Below, piece after piece: positions 3,544 through 13,899 of a DNA stretch of 45,210 bases. Under the pieces are notes generated by a model, which saw nothing but the letters and a program-made list of their open reading frames with translations, made no database searches and was not told where the DNA came from. The stretch lies in NCBI GenBank assembly GCA_017563185.1, contig JAFXIL010000110.1, positions 1 through 45,210 on the forward strand. The letters run 5' to 3'. The DNA comes from Kiritimatiellia bacterium. Lineage in GTDB: Bacteria > Verrucomicrobiota > Kiritimatiellia > RFP12 > UBA1067. The position numbers and the translations under genes are program-made. The number at the start of each line of letters is the position of its first letter. Within the stretch, counting starts at the first letter, position 1.

Positions 3544-4128
3544 TCACAGGACCTTGTCCACGATGCCCCACGCCTTGGCCTCCTCGGCGGACATGAAGTG
3601 GTCGCGGTCGGTGTCGTTGGCGACGGCCTCGAGCGTCTTGCCGGCCGCCTCGGCGAGGATGCCGTTGAGCATGTCTTTGAGGCGCAGGATCTCGCGCGCC
3701 GTAATCTCGATGTCGCTCGCCTTGCCCTGGGCGCCGCCCCACGGCTGATGCACCATGATGCGCGCGTGGGGGAGGGCGAAGCGCCGCCCCTTCTCGCCGG
3801 CGGCGAGCAGGATGGCGCCCATCGACGCCGCCTGCCCCACGCAGTATGTAGCCACAGGGCACTTCACCATCTTCATCGTGTCGAGGATGGCGAAGCCGGC
3901 GGTGACGCTGCCGCCGGGCGAGTTGATGTACATCGACACCTCCTTCTTCGGATCCTGCGCCTGGAGGAAGAGGAGCTGCGCGACGATGGCGTTGGCCATG
4001 CCGTCGTCAATCTCCCCGCCCACAAACACGATGCGGTCCTTGAGGAGGCGCGAGTAGATGTCGTACGCGCGCTCGCCATGGCCGGTCTTCTCAACAACCA
4101 TCGGGATCAGTCTTGCATTTGCCGTCAT
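3544..4128 (-). CDS. clpP: ATP-dependent Clp protease proteolytic subunit
   Basis: A 194-residue ClpP, full family length. The catalytic triad is visible: Ser102 in GQAASMGA, His127 in [11 protein letters not shown], and Asp176 in TDRDHFMSA. The NSPGGSV glycine-rich oxyanion strand and the N-terminal processing region ([20 protein letters not shown]) are also intact. ClpP forms a tetradecameric chamber in the cytoplasm that degrades proteins fed by ClpX or ClpA. The usual partners tig and clpX are not adjacent; upstream is a repeat-filled gap and then an unusual double-AAA+ ATPase gene. That ATPase lacks recognisable ClpX features, so a functional link is unproven. AAGGA ribosome site before the ATG. 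Confidence 0.97.
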
Positions 4129-4275: not shown

Positions 4276-6459
4276 TCAGCACGCGAATCCGATGGGCAGG
4301 CTCTGGCGCTTGTCCTTCTTGACGCGGCACTCATCCTTCAGCGCCTCGATGCGCTCGAGGTTCGTGACCTCGTCCGCGAGGTAGAACTGTTCCTGGCGCA
4401 CGGTGCGAAAGTCGCCGGGGGCGAGGTTGCGGAGGGTCTTCAACTCGGCGGCCTCTTCGTCCGTGAGCGTGGTCTTGAACATGCGCTCGAAGAAGGACTT
4501 CTTCCCAGCGTCGTCAAGGTAGCCGAACTCGAGCTTGAACGTGAAGCGGCGCATGGTGGCCGGGTCGAGGTTCTTCGAGAAGTTGGTGGCGGCCACCATG
4601 ATGCCGTCGAAGTTCTCCATCTGCTGGAGAAGCTCATTCACCTGGGTGACCTCCCAGTTGTGGGAGGCGTTGGAGCGGTCCTGCAGAAGGCCGTCCACCT
4701 CGTCGAAGAAGAGAATGGCGTGCTCCGCCTCGGCGCGGCGGAACGCGTCGGCGATGTTCTGCTCACTCTGACCCACGTACATCCCGAGGATGTCTGAGCC
4801 CTTCATCACCACGACCCTGCGGTCGAGCGCCCGGCCGAGGTACTTCACGAACTCGGTCTTGCCCGTGCCGGGAGGCCCGTAGAGAAGCACGTTCATGCGC
4901 GGCCTATCCTCGGCTGCGGCGGCGAAGTCGGCGTTCAGGTAGTTCCGCGCGGCCTTCACGACGCGTTCGAGGGAGACCTTGCCCTTGATGTTGAGCCCGT
5001 CGAGGGAGTAGTCCTTAGCGGGGAGGAAGTTGTTCGAGTCCTTCACGCCCATGAGCCTGCAGTGCGGCTTCATGAGCGTCGCCACGAGTTCGTCCACCTC
5101 CTCCGGCGCGGGCGCCATGCGCTTGACGTTCGCGAGCACGGTGGAGATGCCGCCCGCGCTCGTCTCGTACTTTGCAGCGAACTTCTCGATCTTCTCCTCG
5201 CCAACGAGCGCCTCCAGGCTGTGCTTCGCCACCTGGTTGCGCCATATCGCGACGCGCTGGGCGTTGTTGAGGCGCTCGAAGCAGATGGAGTAGTCGAAGC
5301 GGCGGCGCACGCTTTCGTCCATCATCTTCGCAGACGTGTTGGATATCCACACGGCGGGCATGTTCATCTCGTCGAGAATGGAGTTCATCACGCCCTTCTC
5401 GGTGGACTTGCCGCCGGTGTCAAATCCGAAGAGGCCGAAGAGGCCGAAGCCGCCGGAGGTTCCGCGCAGCAGCTCGTCCGCCTCATCGACTATCATCAGG
5501 CTGGTCGCGGGGTCCTCCTGCCAGTTGCACACCTGGATGCCCATCATGCGCGCCTCGGACTTCATGTTCCGGCCGTCGTCGTCGCCCTGGCGCACCTCGA
5601 ATGCGGCGCGGCCGAGCACCTTCGCGAGCGAGCGGGCGAACGAGGTCTTGCCCGTGCCAGGCGCACCGTAGAGGAGGATGTTGCACTTTCCGCTGCTTGC
5701 GGCAATCATGCGCTTGAGGACTTCGCCGTCCTTCGCCGAAAGCTCGCCGTAGTACTCCCAGGGGAGAACGTCCTTCTCGTCGCACTTCGCGTAGAAGCGG
5801 CGCTCGATGGTTTCGTCGGACGTGCCGTCGATGAACCTGCCGAGCGTGCGGCGGTTGAAGTCGTAGTCGCAGTCCAGAAGGCCCAGCCTGAGAAGCTTGC
5901 CGTTGGGGGCGAGCGCCTTCATCACCTCGTCGTACGAACGGTCAAGCGCCATCGCGTAATAGAGGGGCTTGTCGCGGTCTTCCAAGCGCACGGGCCAGCA
6001 GAAACACGTCTGGTCACACACGTATGAGAGGACCAGCATTTCAGCCTCGAGGGCGTCAAGCTTGAGGACGCGGGAGAGCTCGGCGAAGCGGCGTGCCATC
6101 ACGTCCTCCCCCTTGTCGTCGCAGTCGGCCTCCATGTACGCGCGCGCAGCGTCAAGGACGGCGCGGCACTTGTCACGGCTACCTTCGTTGTTCCAGAGCG
6201 CGCAGAACACGTCGTCCAACGGGTCCGAAAGGTCCAGGCGGCAGACCCGGGAACGCGCCTTCGCCATCTCGTCCAGCTCGGCTGGCGAGTAGGCCGCCTC
6301 GACCAGCTCCACGCCCTTGTTGTGGTCGAAGCAGTTGCGCACGACGGCGAAGAAGTCGTCGTCGCGGCAGTCGTCGTTGTAGTTCTTGACCATGTTGCCG
6401 AAGTGCTTAAGAAGCCTGCGGTACAGAAAGTTCTGGGGAACCTGCTTGAATCTCGCCAT
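4276..6459 (-). CDS. Tandem AAA+ ATPase
   Basis: A 727-residue cytoplasmic protein with two AAA+ modules. Module 1 has Walker A GAPGTGKT (265-272) and Walker B IVDEAD (about 323-328). Module 2 has Walker A GPPGTGKT (528-535), Walker B LFFDEVD (583-589), a sensor-1 ATN, and an arginine-finger-like MRRF. Module 2 resembles the FtsH/Cdc48/spastin class, including the pore-loop-like GMYVGQSE. Module 1 contains a Gly/Phe-rich insertion (336-346). The first 240 residues are a helical, unrecognised domain. Such proteins remodel or unfold partners; the client is unknown. The small gene 62 nt upstream (6522-6827) is probably in the same operon. The N-terminal ribosome site is weak. Confidence 0.85.
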   Translation of the reverse strand: MARFKQVPQNFLYRRLLKHFGNMVKNYNDDCRDDDFFAVVRNCFDHNKGVELVEAAYSPAELDEMAKARSRVCRLDLSDPLDDVFCALWNNEGSRDKCRAVLDAARAYMEADCDDKGEDVMARRFAELSRVLKLDALEAEMLVLSYVCDQTCFCWPVRLEDRDKPLYYAMALDRSYDEVMKALAPNGKLLRLGLLDCDYDFNRRTLGRFIDGTSDETIERRFYAKCDEKDVLPWEYYGELSAKDGEVLKRMIAASSGKCNILLYGAPGTGKTSFARSLAKVLGRAAFEVRQGDDDGRNMKSEARMMGIQVCNWQEDPATSLMIVDEADELLRGTSGGFGLFGLFGFDTGGKSTEKGVMNSILDEMNMPAVWISNTSAKMMDESVRRRFDYSICFERLNNAQRVAIWRNQVAKHSLEALVGEEKIEKFAAKYETSAGGISTVLANVKRMAPAPEEVDELVATLMKPHCRLMGVKDSNNFLPAKDYSLDGLNIKGKVSLERVVKAARNYLNADFAAAAEDRPRMNVLLYGPPGTGKTEFVKYLGRALDRRVVVMKGSDILGMYVGQSEQNIADAFRRAEAEHAILFFDEVDGLLQDRSNASHNWEVTQVNELLQQMENFDGIMVAATNFSKNLDPATMRRFTFKLEFGYLDDAGKKSFFERMFKTTLTDEEAAELKTLRNLAPGDFRTVRQEQFYLADEVTNLERIEALKDECRVKKDKRQSLPIGFAC

Positions 6460-6521: not shown

Positions 6522-6827
6522 TCATGCGCCGAAGAATTCCTCGATCGCCATGGACTCATCCCCGCGGAAACGATGGGGGCGCTTTGCGGCCCTCGCCTCC
6601 TCCTGCGCATGCTCGAGCGCCTGCCTCTCGCCAGCCCTGCCGGCGATGATCTCCATCGCCCGGGCGCGCGAGGCGCCGTAGATGCGCATGACCATCTTGA
6701 CCTTCAGTTCGGCGAGGAGGTCGGCGCCGACCTTCCTGCCGCGAGCCTTGCCCTTGCGGGCAGGCGTATTCTTCGTCTTCAGTTCGCCGAAGATATCTTC
6801 GGCGTCTATCATTGTATTGCTGCTCAT
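6522..6827 (-). CDS. Small charged hypothetical protein
   Basis: A 101-residue protein with a strong AAGGAG ribosome site 6 nt before its ATG. It is rich in Lys, Arg, Glu and Ala, with a basic segment (KGKARGRKVG, about residues 24-33) followed by long predicted helices and the acidic end ESMAIEEFFGA. No family recognised. It lies directly upstream of the tandem AAA+ ATPase on the same strand, which suggests an adaptor, substrate or regulator of that ATPase. This is inference from position only. Confidence 0.7.
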   Translation of the reverse strand: MSSNTMIDAEDIFGELKTKNTPARKGKARGRKVGADLLAELKVKMVMRIYGASRARAMEIIAGRAGERQALEHAQEEARAAKRPHRFRGDESMAIEEFFGA

Positions 6828-6862
6828 TTTTTCTCCTTTCGAAATTTGGGTTCGCCACTGAC

Positions 6863-6890
6863 ATTAAACTTGCCCGAGATCGACTCCTTA
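6863..6890 (-). promoter_or_regulatory. Putative promoter, second copy of GGGCAAG motif
   Basis: The minus strand reads AAGGAGT, a spacer, TCGGGCAAGTTTAATG, parallel to 3421-3446. It lies about 35 nt before the ribosome site of the gene starting at 6827. Confidence 0.4.
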
Positions 6891-6939
6891 CCGAGCGCGG
6901 CATTTTTTCAGGAAAGATTTGTCAGCAGTCGGATACTCG

Positions 6940-7080
6940 ATAACCATTGCAGACGCAAAAACGTACCGTCTGCGTCAGAATGTTGACAAAAGGCAACACT
7001 CCTACAGCCACGCTTGAAGAATGGAAAACTTCTGCGGGCATGCACCCGCAGCCATTGCAGACTGACGAGAGGTCTGCGAT
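6940..7080. other. Structured intergenic region with three hairpins
   Basis: Three inverted repeats follow each other: GCAGACG...CGTCTGC (6950-6973), CTGCGGG-CATGCA-CCCGCAG (7032-7051), and GCAGAC...GTCTGC (7057-7077). The block CCATTGCAGAC occurs twice (6944-6954 and 7052-7062), so alternative pairings between arms are possible. It sits between the AAA+ partner gene and the remnant next to rtcR. It could encode a small structured RNA or hold tandem protein-binding sites. No known RNA family recognised. Confidence 0.4.
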
Positions 7081-7094
7081 TTGACGCCCTGGCG

Positions 7095-7349
7095 CTACTT
7101 CAGCTTGATCGTCAACGGCCCGCTGCCGCCTTCCGCCACCGTCTCGTGCGCCTGCATGTAGCCGTAGTCGACTGGCCATTTCCAGGGAACGCCCTTTTCA
7201 TAGGGGGGGGATCCAGCCGTATGTGTTCCGGTTGATGTGCACTTTGAAGCGTTCGTAGTAGCCATAGTTAGCGCGTTCATTACATCCTTTTGAAGAATAA
7301 TTGTCGGATCGAGTCTCATGCCGTTGACTTTTGGAAAAGAATCTGCCAT
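7095..7349 (-). pseudogene. Gene remnant with frameshift at a run of eight G
   Basis: The open frame from ATG 7349 is 84 codons but changes character at 7203-7210, a run of eight G on the plus strand. Upstream of the run, a different frame gives a plausible protein stretch (ERANYGYYERFKVHINRNTY then GWIPP). With one base fewer in the run it joins directly to the downstream frame (YEKGVPWKWPVDYGYM ... GPLTIKLK). The restored piece looks like the C-terminal end of a larger protein; the family is not recognised. It is divergent from rtcR with 37 nt between starts, where a target operon would normally lie. Confidence 0.5.
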
Positions 7350-7386
7350 AATGATGACCTCATAACAACAAGGAAAGGGTTCTGCA

Positions 7387-9228
7387 ATGGGAAAAAACAT
7401 TCTCATATCCTACTTCGGCTACGAACATGACCAGCTCAAGCACAAGATTCAAGACAAGGAGTTCCTAAGGCGATTCGGCAAGAACTCTAAGACACAAGGA
7501 TATCTTCTCGAAATGGATCCAGCCGACATCAAAAGGACTGACATCTGGCGCCCATCCGTCGCGCTCGCCTCATATCCCAATCTGCAGTTTGACGAATACT
7601 ACCTCCTGTTCAGCGGGCTCAAAGGCGACATGCGCAAGACTTTTAACGAAGTCGTCGAGGACATCCGGGCGCTACGGCCGAACATGGCGCTGCACACGGA
7701 AGAGATGCCGTTCAAGTCTCCTTGGGACATGGTGAGCGTGTTCAAGACCCTGTACAAGTTTGCAGAAGACCACGCCTCCGAGTTCGGTGCGCCAGACACA
7801 ACCTGCTACGTGAACTGCAACCACGGCACAATGCAGATCAGGGAGTCGCTGTTCATGCTCAGCCAGGAAGGCAAGTTCCCCGGCAAGCGCATACTGCCAT
7901 CCCCGTGGAACGACAATACAAGGCGCGACTACCACACCCCAATAGGCTCATTCACGGAAGACGACCCATCGGAATTCAATGAAGCATATCGACAACTTTC
8001 AAGCGCCACAAAAAGACGCGCGAAGAACAATGGCCTGCACGAGGGAATATTCATAGACCAAAGCAACAAGGAATTCCAGAAGCTGCTCGACCGCATCCTT
8101 TTTGTGGCACAGAGGACAAAGGAGCCAATTCTCTTCACAGGCCCCACCGGCAGCGGCAAGTCGCATCTCGCCAGAAACATCGCACGGATCAAGAAGCTGG
8201 ATAAGAATTTCGTGCACGTCAACTGCGCGACATTGGGCGGAGACCCCGGCCTCATAAAGAGCGAGCTGTTCGGCCACGACGAGGGCGACTTCACAGGCGC
8301 CACGAGAACATGCAACGGACGGCTTCAGCAGGCCAACGGCGGAATTCTCTTCCTCGACGAGGTCGCAGATCTTCCAAAAGACGTGCAGGCGATGCTGCTG
8401 ACGGCCATAGAGACAAAGAAGTTTAGGCGTCCGCATTCGACGGAGGACATCCAGTGCGACTTTATGCTCATCTGCGGCACAAACAAAGACCTGTGGGCGG
8501 AAGTGGAGGCCGGACGTTTCCGCCTGGATCTGCTGGAGCGCATCAACACCTGGCATTTTCACCTTCCCGGACTCGCGGAGAAAGAACGCCCCGGCTATGC
8601 CGCAAGGCGAAAGGACATCGCCCTCAACTGCCGGCAGGTGCTGAGTGAATACAACAAGAAGTATTCAGAACATCGTGAATTCGCCAACGACGCATTGCAA
8701 CGCTTTGTCGAATATGCAGAGGCCGACTCCACCGAGTGGAAGGGCAACTTCCGCGAATTCAATGCCATGATCTTCAGAATGGCGACGCTTGCGGACGGCC
8801 TTCATATCACGCTGCACGACGTCGAACGGGAAATCAAGTATGCCGAGGCAGAGCATAAAACCGGCAATCCAGTGAACAATGCGGCCGCGGAGACCGCGCA
8901 AAAGGATAGCCAAGCTATTCAGGAATCCGGTGTGGCTACAGTCCAATCGCCTGTCCATGCATCGTCGCTCCCCGACGCTTTCTGCAAATTCGAGTTTCTG
9001 CGCGAACTATTGGGCGAAGAAAAGTTCAACAAGAAACGCCTGGACGAGCTTGCCCAGCTAGCGTTCGTCGTCTCGATTTGCAAGGAGTCGAAGGATCAGG
9101 CGGCGGCCAGCCGGAGCCTTCGCCCCGGCGGGGGGGCTGTAGGCTCCAGCCAGCTCTCCAGATATTTCAAAGGGCTTGGCCTAAAATTCAGCGCCGTCAA
9201 GAGGTTTGCGGAGGAACTTGACCCGTAG
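7387..9228 (+). CDS. rtcR: RtcR-type sigma-54-dependent transcriptional activator
   Basis: A 613-residue protein in the order expected for RtcR: an N-terminal CARF-like sensor domain (about 1-185), a sigma-54 AAA+ domain (about 225-455) and a C-terminal region with a helix-turn-helix-like segment (about 545-610). Walker A is GPTGSGKS (252-259) and Walker B LFLDEV (321-326). The sigma-54 contact loop reads GDFTGA (300-305) instead of the usual GAFTGA. RtcR normally senses RNA damage and switches on rtcBA RNA-repair genes. Neither rtcA nor rtcB is visible here. A low-complexity linker (about 465-515) separates the AAA+ domain from the C-terminus. AAGGAAAGG ribosome site. Its 3' end overlaps the convergent helicase gene by 32 bp. 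Confidence 0.9.
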   Translation: MGKNILISYFGYEHDQLKHKIQDKEFLRRFGKNSKTQGYLLEMDPADIKRTDIWRPSVALASYPNLQFDEYYLLFSGLKGDMRKTFNEVVEDIRALRPNMALHTEEMPFKSPWDMVSVFKTLYKFAEDHASEFGAPDTTCYVNCNHGTMQIRESLFMLSQEGKFPGKRILPSPWNDNTRRDYHTPIGSFTEDDPSEFNEAYRQLSSATKRRAKNNGLHEGIFIDQSNKEFQKLLDRILFVAQRTKEPILFTGPTGSGKSHLARNIARIKKLDKNFVHVNCATLGGDPGLIKSELFGHDEGDFTGATRTCNGRLQQANGGILFLDEVADLPKDVQAMLLTAIETKKFRRPHSTEDIQCDFMLICGTNKDLWAEVEAGRFRLDLLERINTWHFHLPGLAEKERPGYAARRKDIALNCRQVLSEYNKKYSEHREFANDALQRFVEYAEADSTEWKGNFREFNAMIFRMATLADGLHITLHDVEREIKYAEAEHKTGNPVNNAAAETAQKDSQAIQESGVATVQSPVHASSLPDAFCKFEFLRELLGEEKFNKKRLDELAQLAFVVSICKESKDQAAASRSLRPGGGAVGSSQLSRYFKGLGLKFSAVKRFAEELDP

Positions 9229-10898: not shown

Positions 10899-11984
10899 CT
10901 ACGCAGCCCCCTTTGAGAAGTTGATGCCGTTGAGATAGAAGCTGCTCGTGCGCGCCGTGTGCGGGTAGAGTCCCTCAAGGTCGAACCCCTTCGAGAGCAG
11001 CGTCCCGGAGAACGACTGCAGCGTGGAATCGGACTTGAGCAGATCCGAATGGTGCGTGCCCAGTTCGGATGCGAAGTTCAGAAGGTCGGCCACGCTGCAC
11101 CCCACGGGCAGGAGCGGACGCTTCTTCTGGCCGATGTTCGCAAGGTCAGTCACGCCGTAGCGCACGCAAGGATTGTCGGCTACGTCGTTCAGGCGCTCGC
11201 GCAGCAGCATCTGGTTGCGGGCGTTCGCCACGGAACGGCGGATCAGCCCCTCCAACAGCACCACCTCGCCAACGGACGCCTTCGTCTCTGCCGCGTTGCA
11301 CATGCGCTCCTGCAGCATCTCCACGCCGGACGGATTGCTGAACGATGCCAGCAGACGGCGGAAATGCTCGCCGCTGTTGTCCTTGATCTCCATCTTCGTG
11401 CGGAAGAGCGACGTCTCGGCCACCGCCCCGTTGGAACAGACCTGCCGCCATGTGGCAAGGCTCATGTCTGGCATGCCAACGCCGTCCACCGGCACGCGAC
11501 AGCGCACGCGCATTCCGTATGTGCTGTCGTTAGGCACGTCCCACGGGTCGTCAAGGTCGAGCATCGCGCTCAGCACGCCGTCGCTGTATTCTACGCCGGT
11601 GAGGCGCTTGTCGTTGTGCAGAACGTTCTCGATGTAGTTGATGGGCATCGGCAGACCCTTGTTCTGGGTGAGGCCGAGAGCCTGCCGGCCTTCGGTGTCC
11701 ACCGTCACGCGCAGCTGAAGGTCCGGAACCTTCGCGGCCGCGCGCTCCATCACCTCGAGCGGCGTGAAGAAGCCAAACACGCCGTATGGTATGCCAAGTT
11801 CGCCGGCCAGCGTCTTGTAGAAGCGGTCGCTCAGCTTGTAGGCGGAGTTGTCGATGACGAGACTCTTGATCTTGGTCTCGTCGCAGTCGAGCGCCTCCAC
11901 CATCTGGCGGGGCGTAATCGGAACGGGCTCGAAGCGATTGCAGATTCGCTCGCCCGGCTTGAGTTTGGTTTTTGTGTTTTTCAT
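10899..11984 (-). CDS. DUF932 (phage/plasmid-like) protein
   Basis: A protein of about 361 residues matching the DUF932 family (phage/plasmid-like TIGR03299 group) in its middle: ALGLTQNKG, NVLHNDKRLTGVEYSDG, the conserved MRVRCRVPVDG, and WRQVCSNGAV. Members occur on plasmids, phages and mobile regions; their biochemical role is unknown. I placed the start at ATG 11984 (GGTGAG upstream). Alternatives are an ATG at 11996 and one at 12062, the latter only 8 nt after the sigma-factor stop. Either way the gene sits between the sigma factor and the helicase on one strand. Confidence 0.75.
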   Translation of the reverse strand: MKNTKTKLKPGERICNRFEPVPITPRQMVEALDCDETKIKSLVIDNSAYKLSDRFYKTLAGELGIPYGVFGFFTPLEVMERAAAKVPDLQLRVTVDTEGRQALGLTQNKGLPMPINYIENVLHNDKRLTGVEYSDGVLSAMLDLDDPWDVPNDSTYGMRVRCRVPVDGVGMPDMSLATWRQVCSNGAVAETSLFRTKMEIKDNSGEHFRRLLASFSNPSGVEMLQERMCNAAETKASVGEVVLLEGLIRRSVANARNQMLLRERLNDVADNPCVRYGVTDLANIGQKKRPLLPVGCSVADLLNFASELGTHHSDLLKSDSTLQSFSGTLLSKGFDLEGLYPHTARTSSFYLNGINFSKGAA

Positions 11985-12070
11985 AGTGCTCACCATGATT
12001 TTAAATTGTTCTGGTAGGGTTTTTCTTACACCTGGAGTTGATTTTTCTAGGATAAATTTCATCCCATGTC

Positions 12071-13522
12071 TTAGGCGCTCTTCGCAATGAATCCGCGCAG
12101 ACGGAGCGACCGTGTGGGATGGCGCAGCTGGCGGAGAGCCTTCGTCTCGAGCTGACGCACACGCTCGCGCGTGACGTTCAGCATCCGCCCCACCTCCTCG
12201 AGCGTGCGGCAATTGCCGTCAACAAGCCCGTAGCGGTATTCGAGCAACTCGCATTCGCGGGCGTTCAGAGTGCCCAATGCGGATATCAGCTGCTCGCGCA
12301 TGAGGCTCTTGTCGGTTTCCTTGCCAGGATCGACGGCGGTCGTATCCTCCACGAAGTCGCCCATGCAGGCATCTTCGTCGTCCCCAACCTTCGCCTGAAG
12401 AGAGACAGGCGTCCACGCCATTTTTCTGAGCGAGCGCACCTTCCACTCGGGCACCCCCATTTCCCAGGCTAGTTCCTTGGCGGAGGGATCTCTTCCCAGC
12501 CGCTGCACAAGTTGCGCGCATACGCGGTTCATGTTGTGGATCTGCTCAATGAGATGCACCGGCAGGCGGATCGTGCGGGCCTGATCGGCTATCGCTCGCG
12601 TCGCGGCCTGGCGGATCCACCATGTGGCGTAGGTCGAGAACCTGTAGCCTCGCCGGTAGTCGAAAAGCTCAACCGCTCGCACAAGGCCGGTGTTGCCCTC
12701 CTGGACCAGGTCAAGGAACTCCAGACCAAGATGCAGAAGGTGTTTGATGGTGGAGACCACTAGCCTGAGGTTTGCCTCGACCACGCGAGTGCGCTTTGAC
12801 TGAAGAATCTCCAACTGCCTGCGCAGTTCGCCGAAACGCTCCACGAATTCTCCCGCAGCCATTCCGGACTCCTTCTCCAAAGACGCCAATCTCGTTCGAA
12901 TTGCTGCAAGTTCGACGTCACGTTTCTTCGAAGGCCGTTTCGCGAGCAGGCGGACCTTTTCGGCGATCAAAGCCCTGCAAGGCCGATAGAGTCGCTCTTC
13001 CACTTCTGCGCATAGCGACTCAAAACATTTCTGCTCTATGCAAAGTTTCTCTGCGAACCTCTCCATATCCGCACTGCTGCGAACACACTTCAGCTTTCGC
13101 CTCAGTTCTGGTATCATCGCCACATATTCCGCCCGGCCGCCCGAGAAATCTACAGAGACGATTCCGTCAAACCGTCCGTCCTGCCCCTCGATTCTGTCCA
13201 GCAGCCGCATATACATCGCCGGCGCGAACCTGAACCAGTTGAAGAGCTTTCTGCTGCTCTTCTTCGCCGCTTCCATGGCCTTGAATGCCGCCAGCTCCTC
13301 GCCTTCAGTCATAAGTGGCACCCGCGCCATCTCACGCATGTAAAGCTGGACGGTCTCATTGGACATCGCCTCCTTCTCCTTCGCGAGCTTGACCTCCTTC
13401 TCAGTCAGTTCCTCTGAATCCGTCAGTTCCTCTCCCTTCGTCATTTCCTCTCCATCCACGATCTCCTCGGTATTGATCACATCCTCGGTAAACAATTCAT
13501 CTGTCTGCTCAATGTAGCTCAT
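12071..13522 (-). CDS. Sigma-70 family RNA polymerase sigma factor (RpoD/SigA-like)
   Basis: A 483-residue sigma factor. Region 1.2 lies at about 53-85 ([17 protein letters not shown]). Region 2 is at about 246-322 with the strongly conserved core [12 protein letters not shown] and [11 protein letters not shown]. Region 3 is about 330-395 and region 4.2 about 438-470 ([20 protein letters not shown]). Between 1.2 and 2.1 is a charged non-conserved region of about 150 residues, as in primary sigma factors. The N-terminus (1-50) is very acidic with repeated EELT-type units and may play the self-inhibitory role of region 1.1. It could be the primary sigma factor or a group 2 paralogue; the association with DUF932 and a helicase favours a paralogue (inference). 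AAAGGAGT ribosome site. Confidence 0.93.
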
Positions 13523-13899
13523 TCTAAGTACTCCTTTGGGGTTGGGGTTAGGTTTAATGCTTGATATTTATATATGCAGACGCAACAACTTCCATCTGCC
13601 GTACGATTTTATTGAAAATCGGAAACATCTGTTTCCATAATTCAGTCTAGCGGTCAATGATCTGAACATTGCCGTTTCGTCATGTTCACATTGTGCTATC
13701 TCCTTTCACATAAGGGAGAACTATGTCATAGGCAGAATCTTACATTGTTTTTAGGACAAAAGAAAAACGACAAAGGATCGGGTTGCATGTCGCCTCGCGT
13801 TCTTCAACCACCATCCATTGTCAAACTTCGAAACTCCGAAACCTCGAAACTTCGAAACTAGACTTGCCGCAGCGCTAAGGAAATGCTACTCTTATAAAC
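13523..13899. other. Intergenic region between divergent genes
   Basis: No gene seen. It holds a 16-bp near-perfect palindrome, GGAAACA-TC-TGTTTCC (13621-13636), a smaller inverted repeat GATTTT/AAAATC around 13603-13618, and an octameric tandem repeat (13821-13860). The palindrome lies about 100 nt upstream of the sigma-factor start and is a candidate operator. Confidence 0.5.
13821..13860. repeat. Degenerate 8-nt tandem repeat
   Basis: Successive units CGAAACTC, CGAAACCT, CGAAACTT and CGAAACTA follow a first partial unit. The same type of repeat, on the other strand, forms the start of the MFS transporter gene (29988-30044). Confidence 0.75.

Follow-up and report, generated by a model that had tools for sequence, protein, structure and literature searches.

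A conserved block and hairpin beside an rtcR paralogue form a putative shared promoter-leader in a Kiritimatiellia bacterium

Introduction

Strong inverted repeats lie between sm101 and a divergent rtcR paralogue in the 45,210 nt of DNA analysed here (the window), one of the 206 contigs of the 3.2 Mb genome, 97% complete, of a gut Kiritimatiellia bacterium. Their position raises the question of whether the region encodes a small RNA, possibly Y-RNA-like as a sequence-only reading had proposed, or acts in cis on the adjacent genes. Passages in PMC7790460 and PMC9879122 describe rsr-yrlBA-rtcBA operons that contain Ro60 and Y RNAs and in which rtcBA is under RtcR, and the latter describes Salmonella rtcR as divergent from the RtcR/sigma54-controlled operon. 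We have investigated the conservation, folding and genomic distribution of the region in the window and in related genomes, the latter designated by G numbers and their loci by L numbers.

Results

The features considered are collected in Table 1. Left of the folded region is the sm101-AAA+-ClpP operon, whose tandem AAA+ ATPase is matched with E no higher than 1e-100 by 43 of the 114 family genomes. The RtcR paralogue matches Pfam RtcR (5e-17) and Sigma54_activat (4.9e-44) as well as the PADLOC family RtcR CARF_AAA_HTH (7.2e-110), and the six near relatives found for it are all in metagenome-assembled records. Right of rtcR the minus strand encodes a helicase, p437 and a sigma70-family factor. 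Between the repeats and rtcR lies the tail of a surface-protein gene, presumably BspA-like, with a C-terminal match in three relatives plus DNA matches.

The p437 protein is 99% identical to its G011 counterpart while RtcR and the helicase are only 88–89% identical. The sigma factor and the sequence upstream of it are almost identical to a copy in G013, a genome whose own RtcR is ∼47% identical; judged from these sequences, parts of the cluster seem to move or recombine between species. The best NCBIfam and PADLOC matches of the tandem AAA+ protein are partial, to the anti-phage ATPase IteA/IetA, and the sole PADLOC family matched by the sigma factor is MzaA of the MZA anti-phage system, the NCBIfam scores of these defence matches being far below curated cut-offs. 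On these sequence matches the cluster may be a defence system.

Table 1. Coordinates of features in and around the folded region of the window
Feature	Position	Strand	Remark
ClpP-like protein	3544..4128	-	named by reading its sequence; co-linear in relatives
Tandem AAA+ ATPase	4276..6459	-	of sm101-AAA+-ClpP operon
sm101	6522..6827	-	first in divergent operon; lacks a Pfam match
Apparent decayed sigma54 promoter of sm101-AAA+-ClpP operon, TCGGGCAAGTTTAATGTCA	6859..6877	-	predicted
Conserved 61-nt element, hairpin then TTTTTGCGTCTGCAATGG	6944..7004	-	R1 training member, 70.8 bits
Block TTTTTGCGTCTGC, cluster-specific cis-element	6949..6961	-	10/13 rtcR loci; near-unique in own genome
Local hairpin GCAGACG-N11-CGTCTGC, 3' arm = block	6949..6973	-	7 pairs in window
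Covarying hairpin, 11 pairs, 8-nt loop, core TGTTG-N8-CAACA	6975..7004	-	compensatory changes
Hairpin CTGCGGG/CCCGCAG	7032..7051		not conserved; G011 none, G013 ∼4 pairs (by eye)
Hairpin GCAGAC/GTCTGC with second copy of duplicated word	7057..7077		not conserved
ORF with truncated 3' end (about 7095-7280) of surface-protein gene	7095..7406	-	
RtcR paralogue (RtcR/CARF part and sigma54 activator part)	7387..9228	+	Pfam, PADLOC
p437	10899-12212	-	member of sigma-factor/p437/helicase operon
sigma70-family factor	12071..13522	-	first gene of second operon; Pfam regions 2, 3 and 4
Putative second element copy, upstream of sigma-factor operon	13571..13632	-	R1 match outside training set

The structural observations that had drawn attention to the region hold: four hairpins are present within 6949-7077, and the word CCATTGCAGAC occurs both at 6944 and at 7052. 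Folding of 6940-7085 beats 200 of 200 shuffles on each strand, with z values of -3.45 and -3.23 on the plus and minus strands, respectively. Identification as a Y-RNA-like RNA was not borne out. Rfam gave no match at gathering in the window and, in 6830-7400 at E values up to 5, returned only SNORD96 (0.13) and HOXA11-AS1_5 (3.3), both far below gathering. TROVE/Ro60 was found in none of 30 genomes, the window's own included, in a search whose control was positive only in Deinobacterium chartae, of 14. ARAGORN detected no tRNA or tmRNA gene in the window, a search that a divergent tRNA-like module could escape. The reading of the region as adjoining rtcR is correct, but this RtcR is not of the RtcB-linked kind: in G005, G012, G014 and G043, the RtcR within 3 kb of RtcB is another one, sharing 40–42% identity with that of the window, and the single RtcB match in the window genome is on another contig.

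Covariation had been suggested as a check on the pairing, and its outcome differs between the hairpins. Compensatory changes occur in relatives in the hairpin at 6975-7004 but the outer hairpins within 7032-7077 are not kept, visual comparison showing no counterpart in G011 and no more than ∼4 pairs in G013. The 61-nt element that includes the kept hairpin is 80% identical to G011 DNA over 51 nt (E 4e-6 in a three-sequence comparison) and reads, in minus-strand order, as the hairpin followed by TTTTTGCGTCTGCAA. Among the window, G011 and two G013 copies, 41 of 44 cells of the hairpin form standard pairs when ungapped 30-nt stretches with equal loops, hand-picked on the shared TTG/CAA core, are compared, stretches relative to which MAFFT alignments of the whole region displace the window row. 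Seven of the 11 pairs changed on both sides, one on one side and three are invariant. Only 2 of 500 shuffles were as good, slid versions were at most 52% paired, and 2 of 96 other TTG-N8-CAA sites, both strands counted, reach seven of the eight outer pairs. The outer pairs would include six G.U wobbles in a minus-strand RNA and one in a plus-strand RNA, a difference which hints at a leftward transcript, although the number is small.

The local hairpin whose 3' arm is the block retains seven pairs in G011, one a wobble, and, judged by eye, ∼5 in G013; where the block takes other variants (seven sites), no significant partner was detected. Folding upstream of block sites reaches a z of -2.5 or lower at three of 12 sites and is unremarkable at the remaining nine. 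Long-range pairing between the block and an upstream partner was considered and rejected, as it is reached by 8–88 of 300 shuffles at the seven GTCTGCA sites and by 147–298 of 300 at the other seven, and is not significant at most sites. The intergenic regions of L052, L053, L055 and L057 contain hairpin-capable repeats of their own (by eye), for example TTGCTTTCGCTATTGGGAG and CAGGATTACAGG, which could be mistaken for conserved structure.

The block is more widely distributed than the hairpin. Comparison of 13 rtcR loci, the window and 12 others, revealed GACGCAAAA on the plus strand, equivalent to TTTTGCGTC on the minus strand, upstream of minus-strand genes in 10; it was not found in this position in G001, G051 or the second locus of G021, and one extra match, in G016, is elsewhere on its contig. 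The covarying hairpin, represented by four sequences of three genomes, is absent at seven of the 10 block loci, and structure does not accompany the block everywhere. RtcR at E 1e-110 or better is encoded in nine of the 114 family genomes and the block is present in all nine. In the window genome TTGCGTCYGYAWW has four matches, the reversed control having one; two of the four head the two minus-strand operons of the rtcR cluster, and the other two read as coding, one of them kinase-like, the open frame being 893 codons long at one site and 348 or 467 at the other. The longer GCAGACGCAAAA has a single occurrence in the 3.2 Mb genome, which is not that at 13576. The pattern GNRGACGCAAAAA is by itself at chance level, its 95 matches across 97 genomes being outnumbered by those of the reversed control; eight of the 95 are at rtcR loci. 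Twelve of the remaining 87 were inspected: one, from G013, is followed by a second gene X (described below), which is intact, and also falls within a 230-codon frame which is that of gene X extended upstream, and the other 11 are inside stop-to-stop frames of 163–699 codons.

A related word near 13576 had also been pointed out. GCAGACGCAA is indeed present there, in the same orientation, and corresponds to a copy of the block before the sigma-factor gene, with counterparts in G011 and G013; the loose count of this 10-mer, in contrast, is at chance level, six in the window with one mismatch allowed versus a chance mean of 5.36. A model, R1, was trained on the two G013 sequences together with those of the window and G011. 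Outside this training set it matches the sigma-gene copies of the window (17.3 bits, E 0.036; E 5.4e-5 on 601 bases) and of G013 (18.1 bits, E 0.023), mostly through sequence, the stem fitting poorly. Reverse-strand readings of two training hairpins score 19.0 and 17.9 bits. With a poor stem fit and equally high reverse-strand scores, these sequence matches support rather than prove a second copy of the element. R1 detected no well-paired hairpin outside its four training sequences, finding the block alone in G012, G005 and G016, and in G021 the block was not found either.

At seven of the 10 block loci the block is followed by a small sigma-like ORF of 209–259 aa, termed gene X. The start codon is 27–32 nt past the 13-nt block in six of these seven loci, and in G016 the likelier start is ∼96 nt past it. 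In G013 the block on the rtcR contig is followed by a 46-aa ORF in the gene X position, the intact gene being at the further copy of the block. At L058:3181-3257, also in G013, a degenerate block, TTTGCTTCTGC, at the usual hairpin distance is followed by the intact block, ahead of a gene X remnant. No trace of gene X was detected in the window, and the G005 locus likewise lacks it. Pfam region 2 is matched at 0.011–0.015 in two of eight members, below the cut-off, and the structural model (pLDDT 64) gave a fold search topped by sigma factors at E 0.59 or worse, weakly suggesting an ECF-type sigma factor. Gene X protein had no match in phages and the intergenic DNA none in plasmids.

The promoter usual for the AAA+ operon is of another type. 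Scanning upstream of the AAA+ gene at 30 loci for a GG-N10-GC site, with assumed sigma54 consensus weights and a cut-off of 12.5, detected a sigma54 site at 19 loci (scores 12.6–18.9; 1.37 expected from shuffles), a count unchanged for the four loci with short upstream sequence at which the scan ran into the gene. No such site is present upstream of the AAA+ operon in the window, the best score being 5.8, and the window genome encodes a sigma54 gene. The window sequence TCGGGCAAGTTTAATGTCA resembles TTGGCATGTTTAATGCTA of G015, likewise ∼50 nt ahead of sm101, and is apparently a decayed sigma54 promoter. In G004 (L098:1373) a sigma54-type site, TGGCACGTTCTTTGC, directly precedes that genome's own sigma-like gene, of the sigma70 family, upstream of the AAA+ gene, an arrangement whose sequence makes a sigma cascade possible.

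The block itself was compared with known promoter classes. As a sigma54 site it has a constant TTGC, but the distance to the upstream GG varies from 5 to 14, being 10 only in G011, and one site is without any upstream GG (both by eye); this reading was rejected. As a sigma70/ECF promoter it lacks a -35 partner, no column upstream of -3 being constant in an ungapped alignment of 10 sites (best 8/10).

Discussion

The conserved core, 6944-7004, is distinguished by its conservation, placement, near-uniqueness and compensatory changes. We consider it an even chance, on sequence comparison, that the region is a shared, putative cis-acting promoter-leader on the minus strand and not an independent RNA gene. 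The core, hairpin plus TTTTTGCGTCTGCAA, would be the promoter-leader of the sm101-AAA+-ClpP operon, having once belonged to a gene X that was presumably lost. The sigma54 site usual for this operon would have decayed, leaving the core in front, and transcription would run leftwards through the core and drive the operon. As the same block heads the sigma-factor/p437/helicase operon, one factor would probably switch both operons around rtcR, its reader being perhaps a cluster-encoded sigma factor or RtcR. Consistent with the promoter-leader are the occurrence of the block in 10 of 13 rtcR loci, six of them with gene X 27–32 nt beyond, and the fact that R1, although built on gene X sites, also matches the sigma-gene copies of the window and G013. 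Against it, a block lacking a constant -35 partner may be an operator or leader motif instead of a core promoter, and the window block is separated from the next start codon by ∼120 nt instead of 30. The hairpin in only four sequences, the chance-level GNRGACGCAAAAA count and the weak sigma match of gene X also weigh against it.

Rather unlikely, though deserving consideration, is that the block, whose sequence TGC-GTCY-GCA forms a partial palindrome, acts as an operator in DNA, in the simplest case a putative site of the RtcR paralogue or of another regulator, the hairpins being DNA inverted repeats. RtcR is on the contig at all 10 block loci, 12 kb from the block in G013, and inverted copies, GCAGAYG, are present upstream at five of the seven GTCTGCA sites. 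The distance to the best inverted partner, however, ranges from 7 to 82 nt at these seven sites, no sigma54 site lies close to the window's sigma-gene copy, the wobble pairs favour RNA from one of the strands, and G016 carries the block yet its RtcR is only 40% identical.

It is unlikely that the region is a functionless leftover, the decayed tail and repeats of the surface-protein gene together with the dead promoter of a lost gene. The surface-protein 3' end, the missing gene X and the decayed-looking sigma54 site would fit such an origin, but despite the absence of gene X the hairpin continues to pair and the block has stayed intact, as it has ahead of the sigma gene.

Quite unlikely, in our estimation, is an RNA leader in which the hairpin and the GCGUCUGC block pair alternatively and control the sigma genes and the AAA+/ClpP operon on RNA damage, perhaps bound by cluster proteins; this would be a two-operon regulon centred on an RtcR paralogue of the CARF type, in which an RNA switch replaces the sigma54 promoter.

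That the region encodes an independent small RNA, to which RtcR or a further cluster protein might bind, is very unlikely: strong folding and the covarying hairpin speak for it, but a scan of 6800-7420, covering sigma70-type promoters and terminators, gave no terminator and only the promoter of rtcR, Rfam has no match, the outer hairpins are not kept, and the block precedes the gene X start by 27–32 nt in six of the seven loci keeping gene X.

The promoter-leader arrangement can be set against known systems. Like the rsr-yrlBA-rtcBA operon, the cluster places an RtcR that has a CARF-type domain next to the target, and in relatives the divergent AAA+ operon is preceded by a sigma54 site. Unlike that operon, the target here is sm101-AAA+-ClpP, with no RtcB, Ro60 or known Y RNA at the locus, and the window has another element together with a sigma54 site that looks decayed. 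A structured stretch near rtcR is shared with the bacterial Y RNAs YrlA and YrlB, from which the region differs in that Rfam gives no match, no Ro60 was found in 30 genomes and ARAGORN detects no tRNA or tmRNA gene. The element resembles autoregulated promoters of alternative sigma factors, as a general kind, in being a common short motif placed ahead of the sigma-like genes in a single cluster but differs in that no constant -35 can be aligned and in the RNA-like hairpin upstream in some loci. The sections of the literature consulted contain no description of the element, which leaves prior publication possible.

This RtcR paralogue of Kiritimatiellae-type bacteria appears to be tied to an AAA+/ClpP and sigma-factor cluster and not to RNA ligation, and the short, near-unique block is a handle for direct testing of the regulon. 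If the promoter-leader reading is true, the locus would represent a promoter replacement in which a sigma54 site decays while the element of a neighbouring sigma-like gene takes over.
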